Source of the DNA: Alphaproteobacteria bacterium | GTDB lineage: Bacteria; Pseudomonadota; Alphaproteobacteria; Rhodobacterales; Rhodobacteraceae | Direction: 5' to 3' | Length of the DNA: 64,000 bases | Assembly (NCBI GenBank): GCA_030425145.1 | Contig: JAUHVK010000009.1 | Coordinates: 1 to 64,000, forward strand | Part shown: positions 50,190-58,575 of the stretch, piece by piece | How the letters are laid out: the number at the start of each line of letters is the position of its first letter | How positions within the stretch are numbered: position 1 is the stretch's first letter | The notes under the pieces: generated by a model | Database searches by the model: none | The model's input: only the letters and a program-made list of their open reading frames with translations | What the model was told of the DNA's origin: nothing | Position numbers and translations under genes: made by a program

Positions 50190-52510
<2,321 letters not shown>

Positions 52511-52514
<4 letters not shown>

Positions 52515-53464
52515 TCCGCAGTCTGATCGCTATACTCATCGCGTCCGCCACACACGCTGTGGCGGACGTTTCCTTTTTGGGGATGCCGCTTGACTGCGTG
52601 TTGGGCAAAACCTGCGTCATCGAAGACTACCCGGATATTGACCCAACAGAGGCCGCCTCAGACTACCGTTGTGGACTCAAGACGCGCGATGGGCACAGTG
52701 GAACGGATTTCGCACTTCTCAGCTTTGAACAAATGAACGAGGGCGTCCGCGTGATCGCCGCCGCCGATGGACGGGTCGAGGCAATTCGCAACACGCGCCC
52801 CGATCAACCCTATGTGCCGGGTACTGCCCTGAACGGAGAGGAATGCGGCAACGCGGTTCGGATCAATCACGGCAACGGGTATCAATCCGTCTATTGCCAC
52901 ATGAAACTGGGCTCAGTGCGCGTTACTCCCGGGCAGCGCGTTGTCCGGGGACAGTTGCTGGGTGAGGTGGGCTTGAGCGGCCTGACCAACTACCCGCATC
53001 TGCACCTGACAATCACCCAAAGCGCTGACATCGTCGATCCCTTTGCCCCCGGTCAAACCAACGCGTGTAGTGAGACTCGGGAAAGTCTGTGGATCGAGCC
53101 GCCGCGCTACACGGATGCCGGTCTCTTTACCGTCGGTGTCTCTGACGCCGTACCGGACTTCGGCAACGTGAAATCCGGCACCGCCCGACGCACCACGCTA
53201 TCTACGACTGATGCGATGGTGCTTTATGCCTATGCCTTTCATGGTGACGCCCATGACAGCATCGCATTGACCATGTTCGGACCCGAAGGCGAGGTTTTCA
53301 GCCACACGGCTGTGCTGGATCAGGATCAAGCACAACTGATGCGCGCCTATGGCAAACGCGCGCCCAGCGAAGGTTGGGTCAAGGGAGAGTATCGCGGATA
53401 CGTGCGACTTCTGCGCGGACGCACGGTTCTGGCCGTCCGTCATGCGGATGTACTCGTGGAATAG
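52511..53464 (+). CDS. secreted M23 family metallopeptidase
   Basis: Signal peptide; HSGTDFALLS...; NHGNGYQSVYCHM; HLHLTI; GTG start overlaps the clpA stop. Confidence 0.88.
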
Positions 53465-53467
53465 CGG

Positions 53468-55732
53468 TTACTGCTCGGTCAGCTTCAACTCGATACGTCG
53501 GTTCTGCGCCCGCGCCTCGGGTGTGTCGTCTGTATTGACCGGCTGGTATTCCCCGAAACCGTTAGCTGACAGGCGGCTGGGCGGAATACCCAATTCCTCG
53601 ATCATGTAGCGCACCACCGACAAAGCGCGCGCCTGCGACAGTTCCCAGTTGTCGGCATAAAGTCCAAGCCCTGACAGCGGAACATTATCGGTGTGACCGT
53701 CAACCCGGATGATCCAATTGATCCCTGCTGGAATATCCTGAGCCACGTCCCTCAGGATCGCAGCCACATTCGCCACTTGCGCGCGGCCTTCGTCGGACAA
53801 TGATGCCTGCGCGGACGGGAACAGGACTTCGGAAGAAAAGACGAACCGGTCCCCTTCGATCCTGACACCTTCGCGGTTGCCCAAAACCTCCCGCAACCGG
53901 CCAAAGAATTCGGAGCGATACTGTTCCAGATCCTGGTTCTCGCCAGCCAGACGCTGCTTCTCTTCTTCAAGCCGTTTCCGCTCTTCCTCAAGCCGAATCC
54001 GCTCCGCCTCTTCCAACTGACGTCGACGCCGCTCTTCCGCGGCAACCCGCGCCAACGCCGTGTTCAATTCGCTTCCCAGGCTTTCGAGCTGGATCTGTGC
54101 TTCCATGTCCCGTGCTTCGGCCTCGTCCAGAAGGGCCTGCAATGATGACAGTTGTCGGCGCAACGCACTTACCTGCTGGTTCAGCAACTCGGTCTGACGC
54201 TGTGCCTCAGTCGCGCGCTGGGTTTCCGTGTCCAGACGGTCCCGCGCCTGCTCCAACAAGAGCTGGCGCTGCTCGGCCTCGCTCAGGCGATCCTGAAGAG
54301 AGGCTTCGGCGGCAACTTGTGCTGCCAGTGCTGCCGCCAACTGATTGCGTGTCTCTTCCAATGTCGCTTCCGTGGATGTCTGTTGCGCCAGCGCGGCGGC
54401 AAGGCGTTGTTCGAGCGATTGTTCGCTCTCCGTCCGCGCCGCTGCATTCGCCTGCGCCTCTGCCAATGCCTGCCGCAGAGCCTCTATCGTCGCCTGCATC
54501 TCAGCGTTTGTTTCTTCCGACCCACTTATCTCTTCTGACAAGGCCACGTTCTCAGCGCGCAGTTCTTCAAGTCGCTCTTCCAAAGCGTTGGCTTCGGCAA
54601 CCCGGATCAAGGCTTGAGACAGACGCGCCTCAAGCGAGGACAGCGTCGTCTGATCCAGTTGCGCTGTCTCAAGCTCCCGCTCGAGAGTTGCAATGCGGTT
54701 CGCCTGTGCCGCCAACTCTGCCCGCAAACCCGCTTCGGTTTCGTCACCTGCCGCCTGAGCCGCGTCGAGTTCAGCTTGCAGGGACGCTAACCGTTCTTCG
54801 CTGTCGGCCAATGCCGCGTCCAATCGCGACTGCAATGCCTCTTGCGCCTCGCGCCCTTCCAACAAGGCCGCAGCAAGGCGCGCGTTCAGGTCTTCTTCCG
54901 CCTCGCGCGCAGCCGCCAAGAGCGTCAGCGTTTCCTCGGCGCGGGCACGCTGTTCTTCCAAGGCCATGGTCATGGCCGTCAGTTCCGCATCCGCATCCTC
55001 CAAACGGGCACGCAAAGCTTCGGCAGCCGCAGCCTCTGCCAGTTTTGCCGCTTCCTCTTCGCTCAAGGCGCTTTCAAGGTCGGCCACCTGAGCAGTCAAA
55101 GAACCAACCTGCTCAGTCGTCTCGGCATTCTCTGCCCGCAAATCCGCCACCAAAGCTTCAAGCGCCTCACGGCGGGCCGCAGCGAGACGCGCTGCCTCGA
55201 CCTGTTCGTCGATCTCTCTCCGTGCCGTTGCCAGCGCGAGGTTCAACGCCTCCTGTTCCGTCAGAAGCTGTTCCCGCACTTCTGTCAGTTCGGCCACCTG
55301 ACCCAAGGCGCTGTCCCGCTCTGACAAAAGCCCGGCCACCTGGTCTTCGAACGATGCGATCCGCGCATCCGCCGCTTCCAACGCTGCTGCCTGCCGGTCG
55401 CGCGCAGCCGAGAGTGAGGCGATGATTGCTTCCTGCTCGCTCAACCGCGCCTGCGTGTCGTCCAGCGTTGCATTCAAGGCACCTAACTGGTTCGTCAGCG
55501 ACGTCGTACGTTGCTGCTCCAAGCCCAGCGCACGCGCGAGTTCCGCGATCTCGGAAGACAGCGAATTCAGTTCGTTTTCCTGTCCGGTGATTGTGTCGCG
55601 CAGCACCGCTTGCACCACCATAAAGATGGTCAACACGAACATCAGCACCAGCAACAGCCCGGTCATCGCATCGACAAAGCCGGGCCAGATCGAAGCCTGG
55701 AACCGGGCTCCGGTACGGCGTGACAGGGCCAC
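53468..55732 (-). CDS. MotB-like OmpA-domain protein with very long coiled coil
   Basis: N-terminal TM WPGFVDAMTGLLLVLMFVLTIFMV with conserved Asp; about 550 aa Ala/Glu/Leu coiled coil; C-terminal OmpA-like DGHTDNVPL...LSQARALSVVRYM...NRRIELKL. Confidence 0.88.
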   Translation of the reverse strand: MALSRRTGARFQASIWPGFVDAMTGLLLVLMFVLTIFMVVQAVLRDTITGQENELNSLSSEIAELARALGLEQQRTTSLTNQLGALNATLDDTQARLSEQEAIIASLSAARDRQAAALEAADARIASFEDQVAGLLSERDSALGQVAELTEVREQLLTEQEALNLALATARREIDEQVEAARLAAARREALEALVADLRAENAETTEQVGSLTAQVADLESALSEEEAAKLAEAAAAEALRARLEDADAELTAMTMALEEQRARAEETLTLLAAAREAEEDLNARLAAALLEGREAQEALQSRLDAALADSEERLASLQAELDAAQAAGDETEAGLRAELAAQANRIATLERELETAQLDQTTLSSLEARLSQALIRVAEANALEERLEELRAENVALSEEISGSEETNAEMQATIEALRQALAEAQANAAARTESEQSLEQRLAAALAQQTSTEATLEETRNQLAAALAAQVAAEASLQDRLSEAEQRQLLLEQARDRLDTETQRATEAQRQTELLNQQVSALRRQLSSLQALLDEAEARDMEAQIQLESLGSELNTALARVAAEERRRRQLEEAERIRLEEERKRLEEEKQRLAGENQDLEQYRSEFFGRLREVLGNREGVRIEGDRFVFSSEVLFPSAQASLSDEGRAQVANVAAILRDVAQDIPAGINWIIRVDGHTDNVPLSGLGLYADNWELSQARALSVVRYMIEELGIPPSRLSANGFGEYQPVNTDDTPEARAQNRRIELKLTEQ

Positions 55733-55735
55733 GGC

Positions 55736-56926
55736 TTAACCCTCGCCCTTTTCGGCCTTACGCCCCGAGTTGCGCGCCATACGATCAAGCGCGCGGGCAA
55801 TCGCGTTCAGATCGGTGCGCAGTTCAGCCATCGTCTCCTGACGCCCTGCTGCCACCTCTTCGAGAATCCGCAGCATTTGCACGTCAATTGACCGCAGCCG
55901 CATGCGGCTTTCCGCATCCAGACCTTCATTCTCGGACTTGTGCGACAGAACGTCGATCAATCGGTCCTGACTGTCCGCGATCCGGGCAAAGGCCGTGGCA
56001 CTGGGGGCTGTGGCCTCCATCCGTTCGGTCATACGTTCCATCGTATCGCTTAGCTGTCCTAGTCGGTATTCGACCTCGGACCGCCCCTCTTCGGACCGAG
56101 CGAACAGCAATTGAAGCCCTTCCATCTGCTCGACCATCTGGTCGAGGATGACGCCAGCCATGCCCATGTCACCGCCGCCCTCACCGTCCCCGCTGGAAAA
56201 GCCCAGCTTGGTGATGGAACTCAGCCATTCTTCCAATTCACGGTAAAATCGGTTCTGACCGTGACCGGCGAAAAGCTCAAGCAGTCCGACAACCAGCGAT
56301 CCAGCCAAGCCCAAGAGTGACGAAGCAAACGCAACGCCCATCCCCGACAATTGGCTGTCGAGCCCATTCATCAGTCGGGCAAAAACGTCGACCCCGGTCT
56401 CACCATCCTGAGGCGCAAGACCCCGGATCGTGTCTACCAACGCAGGCACCGTCGTCGCCAAGCCATAGAATGTACCAAGCAGACCAAGGAAGATCAGAAG
56501 ATTGACGATGTAGCGCGTGATCTCCCGCGCTTCGTCGATGCGGGTCGCCACTGAATCGAGGATCGACCGCGTCGAAGTGGTGTTGATCTGCATCCGTTTG
56601 CCGCGCGACCGCAGCAGCGTGGCCAAAGGTGCGAGCAACAGCGGCGCTTTACTCTGAAACCCACCTTCCCGTTCCCGTGCGAAATGCTCGATCCAACGCA
56701 CCGACTGGATCAGTTGCCAGACCTGCCAAAAACAGGCCAACACTCCGAGCACGAACACAAACCCGATGAACCCGTTCAGATAGGGATTGGCTTCGAACAC
56801 GGGCAGAACCCGCGGCAAGGCCAGAAAACCGCCAAAACCGGTTAGCCCCAAAACAAGGAGCATCATCAGCACCTGACGGACAGGCTGGGAAAACTGTGGC
56901 TCGGCCTCGAGGTCCGGCTGATCCAT
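55736..56926 (-). CDS. MotA/TolQ/ExbB-like proton channel family protein
   Basis: RYIVNLLIFLGLLGTFYGLATTVPAL and GMGVAFASSLLGLAGSLVVGLLEL typical of the family. Confidence 0.85.
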   Translation of the reverse strand: MDQPDLEAEPQFSQPVRQVLMMLLVLGLTGFGGFLALPRVLPVFEANPYLNGFIGFVFVLGVLACFWQVWQLIQSVRWIEHFAREREGGFQSKAPLLLAPLATLLRSRGKRMQINTTSTRSILDSVATRIDEAREITRYIVNLLIFLGLLGTFYGLATTVPALVDTIRGLAPQDGETGVDVFARLMNGLDSQLSGMGVAFASSLLGLAGSLVVGLLELFAGHGQNRFYRELEEWLSSITKLGFSSGDGEGGGDMGMAGVILDQMVEQMEGLQLLFARSEEGRSEVEYRLGQLSDTMERMTERMEATAPSATAFARIADSQDRLIDVLSHKSENEGLDAESRMRLRSIDVQMLRILEEVAAGRQETMAELRTDLNAIARALDRMARNSGRKAEKGEG

Positions 56927-56998: not shown

Positions 56999-57529
56999 TT
57001 AAGCGATCAACTCCCGTACACGCGCACAGAGCCAGTCCAACTCAGCATCCGGAATGCCCAACTCAGCCAAATGTGCCGCCGTATTGAACAGGTATTCGCT
57101 GTTCGGGCCGCGCCCGCCAACCGCCATTGCAATGATCTGCGCCTGCTCTTCCAACTCCAGACACCCGCAATACTGCACATGGTCCGGGTCAATCACATAA
57201 GTGACGGCAGTCACAGCGCGACCATCCGCGAGAGAGAGCGGAAGAAGCTTTTCCAGATAAGCCGACGACACCAGTTCACGTTCCCGCAAATAGGCCATTG
57301 TGGCGTCGTATTCCGCCTCGTGCATCTGCATTGCCAGGCCATCGCAAAAGCTCCCCGGATGCTCATCCAGTGCAAGCACCAGACCCGGGTCTTCCTCGGT
57401 TCCACGATGGTGGATCGACCGCATACAGAAACTGCGCGCATAGCCATCCAGCCGGGCATGCGCGGTTTCAACTGGCGCAAAGCCGGGATTCCACAAAAGC
57501 GATCCGTATCCGAATACCCAAAGCGTCAT
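56999..57529 (-). CDS. gamma-glutamylcyclotransferase (ChaC-like)
   Basis: MTLWVFGYGSLLWNPGF...GYARSFCMRSIHHRGTEEDPGLVLAL. Confidence 0.93.
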   Translation of the reverse strand: MTLWVFGYGSLLWNPGFAPVETAHARLDGYARSFCMRSIHHRGTEEDPGLVLALDEHPGSFCDGLAMQMHEAEYDATMAYLRERELVSSAYLEKLLPLSLADGRAVTAVTYVIDPDHVQYCGCLELEEQAQIIAMAVGGRGPNSEYLFNTAAHLAELGIPDAELDWLCARVRELIA

Positions 57530-57597
57530 GATGCTGGTCCTGCCTTTCCCCGCGCGATAAACACCAAAGGCGCGGCAGACAAAAGGGGGTGCGGGGC

Positions 57598-58575
57598 GTG
57601 AAACGACTTCTATCGGTGATCGCCTTGGCCAGTCTGGCCTATAGCGGATGGTGGTTCTACGCCGCCAACACCCTGCGCAGCGACATTGAGTCATGGTTCG
57701 CCGCCCAACAGGCCGCGGGCCTTAAAGCAAGCTTTGCCGACCTGACCGTGCGGGGCTTTCCCAACCGGACAGACGCGACCCTCACCGACCTGATCCTAAC
57801 CTCTGAAGACGGTCGTTTCGGCTGGCGCGCGCCGTTCCTGCAAATCCTCGGGCTGAGCTATAAACAGGGCCACGTGATCGTGGCATGGCCTGACATGCAA
57901 ACTCTGACGACCCCGGAGGGCGACATTGCCGTCACTTCCGACGGACTGCGCGCAAGCGTGATCCACGCCGACAACGCGGTGCTGCGCAGCAATCTCGAAG
58001 CCACGGTTCTGAATTTCACCGGGCCAAAACGAACGCTGGCCTTGGCCGACGTCAACGCCGCCCTGCAAAAGATCGAAACCACCTACAGCACCTACCGCGT
58101 TGCTCTCTCGGCAGGCAGCGCGGCCGTTCCGTCTTCGGACATCGCGCCTTCGGTTGGGCCCGAGTCACTGGCCAGCCTCCGCGCGGAAATCGATGTGAGT
58201 TTCGAGCAACCGCTGACCTTCGACACGCTGGCTGCCCAACCGCTGCGCCCAACTGCCATCGCTCTTCACCGCTCAGAACTCGCCTATGGCTCCGTCACCT
58301 TCAAATTCACGGGAGATGCCACGCTCGACGATCAGGGCCGTGCGACCGGAAAAGTCAGCATCACCGCCGAAAACTGGCGAGATGCCCTCGAAACCGCCCG
58401 CGCATCCGGTGACCTGCCCCCAGTTCTGGCGGATGGGCTGATCGACCTGCTCACTCTGCTCGCCAGCTTCGGAGCTTCGCGCGATGCGCTTGATGTGACG
58501 CTCGGCCTCGACAAGGGCGCAGTGCTGTTTGGACCGCTTCCCATAGGATCGCTTCCGCCACTCATGTCGCGCTGA
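57598..58575 (+). CDS. DUF2125 domain-containing protein
   Basis: Single TM N-terminus; SDIESWFAAQQAAGLKASFADLTVRGFPNRTDATLTDL; upstream in-frame GTG at 57589 is an alternative start. Confidence 0.85.
   Translation: MKRLLSVIALASLAYSGWWFYAANTLRSDIESWFAAQQAAGLKASFADLTVRGFPNRTDATLTDLILTSEDGRFGWRAPFLQILGLSYKQGHVIVAWPDMQTLTTPEGDIAVTSDGLRASVIHADNAVLRSNLEATVLNFTGPKRTLALADVNAALQKIETTYSTYRVALSAGSAAVPSSDIAPSVGPESLASLRAEIDVSFEQPLTFDTLAAQPLRPTAIALHRSELAYGSVTFKFTGDATLDDQGRATGKVSITAENWRDALETARASGDLPPVLADGLIDLLTLLASFGASRDALDVTLGLDKGAVLFGPLPIGSLPPLMSR

Follow-up and report, generated by a model that had tools for sequence, protein, structure and literature searches.

Two adjacent genes of an alphaproteobacterium of the family Rhodobacteraceae, here called A and B, encode a MotA/TolQ/ExbB-type membrane protein and a wall-binding protein with a very long coiled coil. 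They lie on a 64,000-nucleotide (nt) stretch (contig JAUHVK010000009.1 of assembly GCA_030425145.1; hereafter the window). We put the probability that their products form an envelope motor of the MotAB/TolQR/ExbBD/ZorAB class, driven by ions and anchored to the wall, at roughly 55%. A reading of the window made from its letters and open reading frames (ORFs) alone, hereafter the sequence-only reading, had proposed the pair, and both ORFs were indeed found on the minus strand (Table 1). They are not neighbors by chance, as B directly followed A in 159 of the 169 loci that we fetched; of the other ten, most lay at contig ends, had a larger gap or came from very divergent relatives. Between the TAA stop of A and the GTG start of B lie three bases, the spacing seen most often in this family (59 of the 159 adjacent pairs), which makes the proposed translational coupling plausible.

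The class assignment of A rests jointly on motif, fold and partner, because its score against the Pfam model MotA_ExbB was only 17.7 bits, under the curated cut-off of 22.9. In the AlphaFold2 model of A (predicted local distance difference test score (pLDDT) 64), we observed four long helices able to hold four transmembrane (TM) segments, as well as a helical tail, and a Foldseek search with this model returned TolQ, ExbB and ZorA (best E = 1.7e-3, probability 1.0). In an alignment with E. coli TolQ and ExbB, the two polar residues T152 and S203 occupy the places of the TM3 and TM4 threonines. Across 44 divergent A proteins, LGLLGTF, G155, L156, G195, M196, A199, F200, S203, G206 and L207 were all invariant. 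The tail, estimated beforehand at about 150 amino acids (aa), is closer to 160 (median length 159 residues); it starts past a conserved EEW and retains 44–58% consensus identity across the class. The Protein Data Bank held no sequence relative of A of note, with ZorA (8vvn, E = 3.4) as the only match. The genome of the window encodes five further MotA_ExbB proteins, and A is therefore not its TolQ, ExbB or MotA.

B combines a single Asp-containing TM segment, a long coiled coil and an OmpA-type domain, as the sequence-only reading had described. Conservation of the TM aspartate had been set in advance as one point on which the idea could fail; D21 proved invariant in 33 divergent homologs, as did W16 and V20. 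The OmpA-domain motifs GH-D and NRR, and the stalk motif R606-S607-x-F609-F610 ahead of that domain, are likewise retained by all 33. By Foldseek, the end domain matched those of MotB, MotS and PA0833. With the NCBIfam model NF006542 (PRK09039, 'peptidoglycan -binding protein'), whose cut-off is 388 bits, B reached 822 bits, and each of the 33 homologs matched all five models NF006542–NF006546.

To compare shafts between loci, we measured shaft length between two invariant anchors, the TM Asp and the second F of RSEFF. At 157 loci, it took 86 distinct values between 141 and 1274 residues. The lengths were very unevenly distributed over the modulo-7 classes 0–6 (16, 14, 3, 5, 42, 5 and 1, respectively; chi-square p = 4e-19), and among the moduli 2–15 only 14 gave a signal besides 7. 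Below 480 residues, 54 of 56 distinct lengths fell into classes 4, 0 and 1, corresponding to a main phase and two stutters (p = 2e-16, allowing for all sets of three classes). Comparing reciprocal nearest pairs, as a partial guard against shared ancestry, we found that 19 of the 25 pairs of unequal length differed by 0, 3 or 4 modulo 7 (p = 8e-4). The lengths of the A tail, which served as a control, had no modulo-7 preference and correlated weakly with rod length (rho = 0.36, uncorrected for phylogeny). Furthermore, the linkers contained 0.02 prolines per 100 residues and displayed a sharp 3.5-residue period. The simplest reading is that one coiled coil runs unbroken between the membrane helix and the wall domain, and that its insertions and deletions are constrained so that register is kept. 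Any long coiled coil would be expected to obey such a constraint, and the heptad rule thus shows structure and continuity, not rotation.

The AlphaFold2 model of a single B chain (pLDDT 69) placed helices at residues 16–208, 217–328, 332–403, 412–432 and 437–617. In this model, the membrane helix and the first coil form one helix, the last coil enters the OmpA fold, and the weak breaks in between would fit a long rod that is hinged and segmented. The coil phase of the window's B is steady from residue 47 to about 280, after which it shifts. The sequence-only reading had treated a coil of about 550 aa as the defining feature, which has to be revised: the usual rod spans about 120–410 residues, and the long form is an elongation of the Rhodobacterales. 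At 0.1485 nm per residue, a straight rod would measure 17 nm for the shortest shaft, 35 nm for the median outside Rhodobacterales, 84 nm for the window and 186 nm for the longest. The last of these belongs to the longest B that we found, a protein of 1439 aa with an Asp-to-RSEFF distance of 1274 residues (L054:9189-13508, plus strand). Very long rods occur a second time in three non-Rhodobacterales loci (L191, L203 and L207; 709–753 residues), none of which has an adjacent gene C (see below). We considered recent tandem duplication as the source of rod growth and rejected it, as both the window's B and the 1439-aa protein contain short imperfect repeats only.

A was detected in 190 of 289 alphaproteobacterial genomes, including genomes of 0.7–1.0 Mb and nearly always as a single copy, in a survey that used a single-sequence query and in which some absences may be false. 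Its nearest relatives were in Marivita loci (87–95% identity), which places the window's genome in Marivita or close to it. Co-occurrence with MurG was uninformative, MurG being present in 282 of the 289 genomes. We compared 47 loci; most of those outside Rhodobacterales had the gene order tkt-gap-pgk-fba-thiE-efp-suhB-(C)-A-B, with an ABC transporter often next in line. We read these gene names from the sequences. The annotation of Sinorhizobium meliloti bears them out in part: it lists a thiamine phosphate synthase, a sel1 repeat protein, an inositol monophosphatase, A (368 aa, 'MotA/TolQ/ExbB proton channel family protein'), B (342 aa, 'peptidoglycan -binding protein') and an ABC transporter. 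In Rhodobacterales, the pair instead adjoins genes for ChaC, DUF2125, an M23 peptidase and ClpA. The ChaC-like and DUF2125 neighbors pointed out in the sequence-only reading are thus present; given the housekeeping order elsewhere, however, this setting is a derived one.

Gene C lies between suhB and A, and we detected it ahead of A at 94 of the 169 loci (95 if L090, where it overlaps the predicted start of A, is counted), for example at L068:6974-7915 and L100:6563-7996 (both plus strand). Its product begins with what looks like a signal peptide and has a Pro-rich stretch; its OmpA-like domain retains the Arg of the peptidoglycan-binding motif but lacks the Asp, with HTD in only one of the 94. 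None of the 46 Rhodobacterales loci had C adjacent to the pair. Elsewhere in the window's genome we obtained five weak matches to C (best E = 2.6e-8) and no clear ortholog; the two matches that we read carry an ordinary GHTD, and another, about 3 kb from a TolQ-like gene on the same contig, is probably Pal. The idea that rod length trades off against the loss of C was not supported outside Rhodobacterales (p = 0.24).

If the pair works like other members of the class, five A subunits would surround the TM helices of two B subunits (5:2). Cations would travel along T152 and S203 of A and D21 of B, and their flow would turn A5 relative to B2. The B helices would continue into a parallel two-stranded coiled coil whose far end carries two OmpA domains that hold on to the peptidoglycan. 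B2 would then serve as a shaft held by the wall, and A5, together with its conserved tail in the cytoplasm, as the moving part; equivalently, torque would load the wall. In most Alphaproteobacteria, the secreted OmpA-like protein C from the same cluster may act as a partner, and in Rhodobacterales, which lack an adjacent C, the shaft is stretched 2–5 fold. The likeliest job of such a device would be a housekeeping one, namely the remodeling of envelope or wall at poles or septum, rather than motility or defense.

How A relates to known motors was assessed with a maximum-likelihood tree, which was midpoint-rooted and contained very divergent rows. The 17 family members grouped together (98/96) beside three alphaproteobacterial ZorA-like proteins (97/92) and apart from both TolQ/ExbB and MotA. 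That the A clade is sister to ZorA is a good reading of this tree, not proof. A Zorya-like sensor is the strongest rival explanation of the pair: disturbance of the wall could pull on B and open the A5 channel, upon which the A tail would signal to an unlinked effector, either in defense or in a response to wall damage. ZorB, too, has a TM Asp and ends in an OmpA-type domain, A and ZorA share a cytoplasmic helical tail, and Zorya requires wall binding, ZorB D24 and the ZorA tail (PMC11890865). We nevertheless regard a Zorya-like sensor as unlikely. A PADLOC scan of nine neighbors found no Zorya effector (zorC/D/E), nor did we see another effector alongside the pair. A is a single-copy, vertically kept core gene with a class-wide distribution and a housekeeping neighborhood, unlike patchy defense systems; matches to ZorA models were present in only three of the 190 genomes, all of which also carry A, so that the two coexist. 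Moreover, the elaboration is in the periplasmic shaft of B, not in the tail of A. Membership of the pair in Zorya itself is ruled out by score (NF033917, 22.4 bits against a cut-off of 500; A matched ZorA models weakly), tree and neighbors, in line with the sequence-only reading. The ZorA-like proteins of the three genomes (L240, L241 and L242) are themselves all under the curated ZorA1 cut-off, and in L240 a ZorB-like ORF lies alongside.

Somewhat less probable still is a force transducer of the Tol/Ton type, whose rod would cross the wall and work with C at or near the outer membrane. Even 17-nm rods with their end domain could pass the peptidoglycan, and the cluster also encodes C, which is secreted and OmpA-like. 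Against this, the canonical wall-binding motif of B (GHTD, NRR) is invariant, and C has lost the binding Asp, is never adjacent in Rhodobacterales and contains no outer-membrane anchor that we could identify. With TolQR and ExbBD the pair shares the fold of A, to which they gave the best Foldseek matches, the polar residues of TM3 and TM4 and the TM Asp. It differs from them in that A has four TM segments instead of three, belongs to another clade and has TolQ and ExbB as separate paralogs in its genome, whereas B carries an OmpA domain and a long coil. No TolA or TonB gene was identified among the neighbors scanned.

That the pair is a passive tether or spacer, which joins the inner membrane to the wall and has lost ion conduction, appears improbable. 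A rod length that is free over a 9-fold range would be easier to explain for a tether than for a tuned motor; however, neither the TM Asp nor either of the two polar channel positions varies across the class, and the heptad phase is kept. An accessory flagellar stator can be dismissed with still greater assurance: it would draw on the fold homology and the many entries annotated MotA/MotB or 'flagellar motor protein', but A occurs independently of FliG (both in 115 of the 289 genomes, A only in 75, FliG only in 55, neither in 44; Fisher p = 0.45), and its own genome has a separate MotA (L005) that groups with E. coli MotA in the tree. Flagellar MotAB and PomAB share with the pair the architecture of four TM segments plus one TM-OmpA protein, and MotB-like structures come closest to the B end domain; the clade differs, however, and B is modeled with its TM helix running straight into the coil, with no separate plug or linker predicted. 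A survey of MotAB relatives described the non-flagellar forms as one heterogeneous group whose B subunits have no OmpA-like domain (PMC12505986), a statement to which the A/B family is an exception.

Experimental data that may bear on the proposed motor come from Komagataeibacter hansenii, in which motA (348 aa, four TM) adjoins motB (321 aa, one TM, OmpA-like) and which has no flagellum (PMC6570709). The reported relatives of its MotB are OmpA/MotB-domain proteins of Rhizobium, Rhodospirillum and Magnetospirillum (46–48% identity over 95–99% of the length; PMC6570709). The K. hansenii proteins share size class, topology and adjacency with A and B, differing in a short rod, and are very probably their orthologs. 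When they were overexpressed, cells became longer and formed chains with septa, colonies spread faster and cellulose increased; green fluorescent protein fusions sat at the pole in short cells and at both poles in long ones. The authors read both as motility proteins (PMC6570709). Taken together with class-wide retention and the housekeeping neighborhood, these data favor a role in envelope or division over defense or motility. A septation or envelope role is as yet unproven, and experimental backing, of an indirect kind, exists for septation alone. The pair had also been called uncharacterised, which stands in so far as PRK09039 gives no function; B was already known under that name, however, and the very probable ortholog pair of K. 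hansenii has overexpression phenotypes.

Several observations weigh against a motor with this role. The K. hansenii phenotypes are from overexpression only, and the orthology was derived from length, topology, adjacency and reported matches, not from the K. hansenii sequences themselves. An overexpressed membrane protein can by itself lengthen cells. In the literature, we found no deletion phenotype, complex or ion flux for the A/B family, although names printed with a slash may evade phrase searches. Shafts above 480 residues, mostly from Rhodobacterales, prefer class 4 only weakly (9 of 30, p = 0.02). Rods of 84–186 nm exceed a typical periplasm, and such a shaft must tilt, bend or fold. Finally, about a third of the sampled alphaproteobacterial genomes lack A, some of them complete (G444 from the window's own family and members of the sampled families f13, f63 and f146), which indicates that the pair can be lost.

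A sample of the phylum added a few carriers of A outside Alphaproteobacteria. Four loci from other Pseudomonadota (L233–L236) hold close relatives of the pair with short rods, which suggests horizontal transfer or an older origin; L234 has different neighbors, with a TatD-like gene next to A, and showed no C. Carriage by plasmids or phages was considered and rejected, as there was no phage match and the five matches in replicons were in very large rhizobial ones. A 3.7-Mb S. meliloti record labeled plasmid pSymB (CP090106.1; L247) holds the neighborhood in a chromosomal-looking housekeeping form, and its replicon label is probably wrong.

Table 1. Coordinates of the A/B pair, its parts and its neighbors in the window
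Feature	Position	Strand	Description
Gene A	55736-56926	-	396 aa, MotA/TolQ/ExbB/ZorA-type channel subunit; single copy in own genome
A TM1	56807-56875	-	About residues 18-40; hydrophobic stretch, AlphaFold2 helix 15-46
A TM2	56699-56779	-	About residues 50-76; AlphaFold2 helix 48-84; followed by Arg/Lys-rich cytoplasmic loop up to residue 137
A TM3	56432-56515	-	About residues 138-165; invariant LGLLGTFxGL; T152, polar ion-path residue; aligned with TolQ/ExbB GLFGTVWG
A TM4	56267-56350	-	About residues 193-220; GMGxAFxSSLxGL; S203, second polar residue
A cytoplasmic helical tail	55739-56209	-	Residues 240-396; conserved RxIDVxxxRxLEE; AlphaFold2 helices 257-306, 310-335, 338-392
Gene B	53468-55732	-	754 aa, GTG start; single TM, coiled coil, OmpA domain; NCBIfam NF006542 (PRK09039)
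B transmembrane segment WPGFVDAMTGLLLVLMFVLTIFMVVQAV	55604-55687	-	Residues 16-43; invariant W16, V20, D21
B Asp21 codon	55670-55672	-	Positional equivalent of E. coli MotB D32, ExbD D25, TolR D23
B coiled-coil shaft	53921-55597	-	Residues 46-604; 559 aa, 0 Pro, exact 3.5-residue period
B juxta-OmpA stalk, conserved	53828-54184	-	Residues 517-635; invariant R606, S607, F609, F610
B OmpA-type peptidoglycan-binding domain	53498-53824	-	Residues 637-745; GHTD 679-682, NRR 744-746; E=4e-18
M23-family peptidase	52463-53464	+	Convergent with B, 3-nt gap; PF01551 E=1.5e-19
ChaC-like gamma-glutamylcyclotransferase	56999-57577	-	Neighbor, outside motor; PF04752 E=2.7e-42
DUF2125 protein	57589-58575	+	Divergent neighbor, outside motor; PF09898 E=2.9e-50

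Ion motors of the 5:2 type drive flagella, outer-membrane maintenance, nutrient import, gliding and phage defense. Of the present pair, B as PRK09039 and the K. hansenii MotAB were already known; the PRK09039 models, of which B is a member by score, name B alone and include no function, partner, motor, shaft rule or gene C. On a more tentative interpretation, which we hold with clearly less confidence than that of an envelope motor as such, A and B could constitute a housekeeping alphaproteobacterial motor with a phase-locked, wall-anchored shaft of about 17–186 nm, varied in heptad steps, that acts at poles and septum with the degenerate OmpA-like protein C and represents a fifth major 5:2 branch besides Mot, Tol, Exb and Zor. 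A further motor branch that is spread as a core gene through a class with major symbionts, marine bacteria and developmental models, and whose job is unassigned, would be a real gap. The gene cluster points to C as a candidate partner of the motor. The heptad rule, in turn, predicts that insertions of 7 residues into the shaft would be tolerated and insertions of 1 or 2 would not, which would separate a shaft that transmits torque or phase from a tether.

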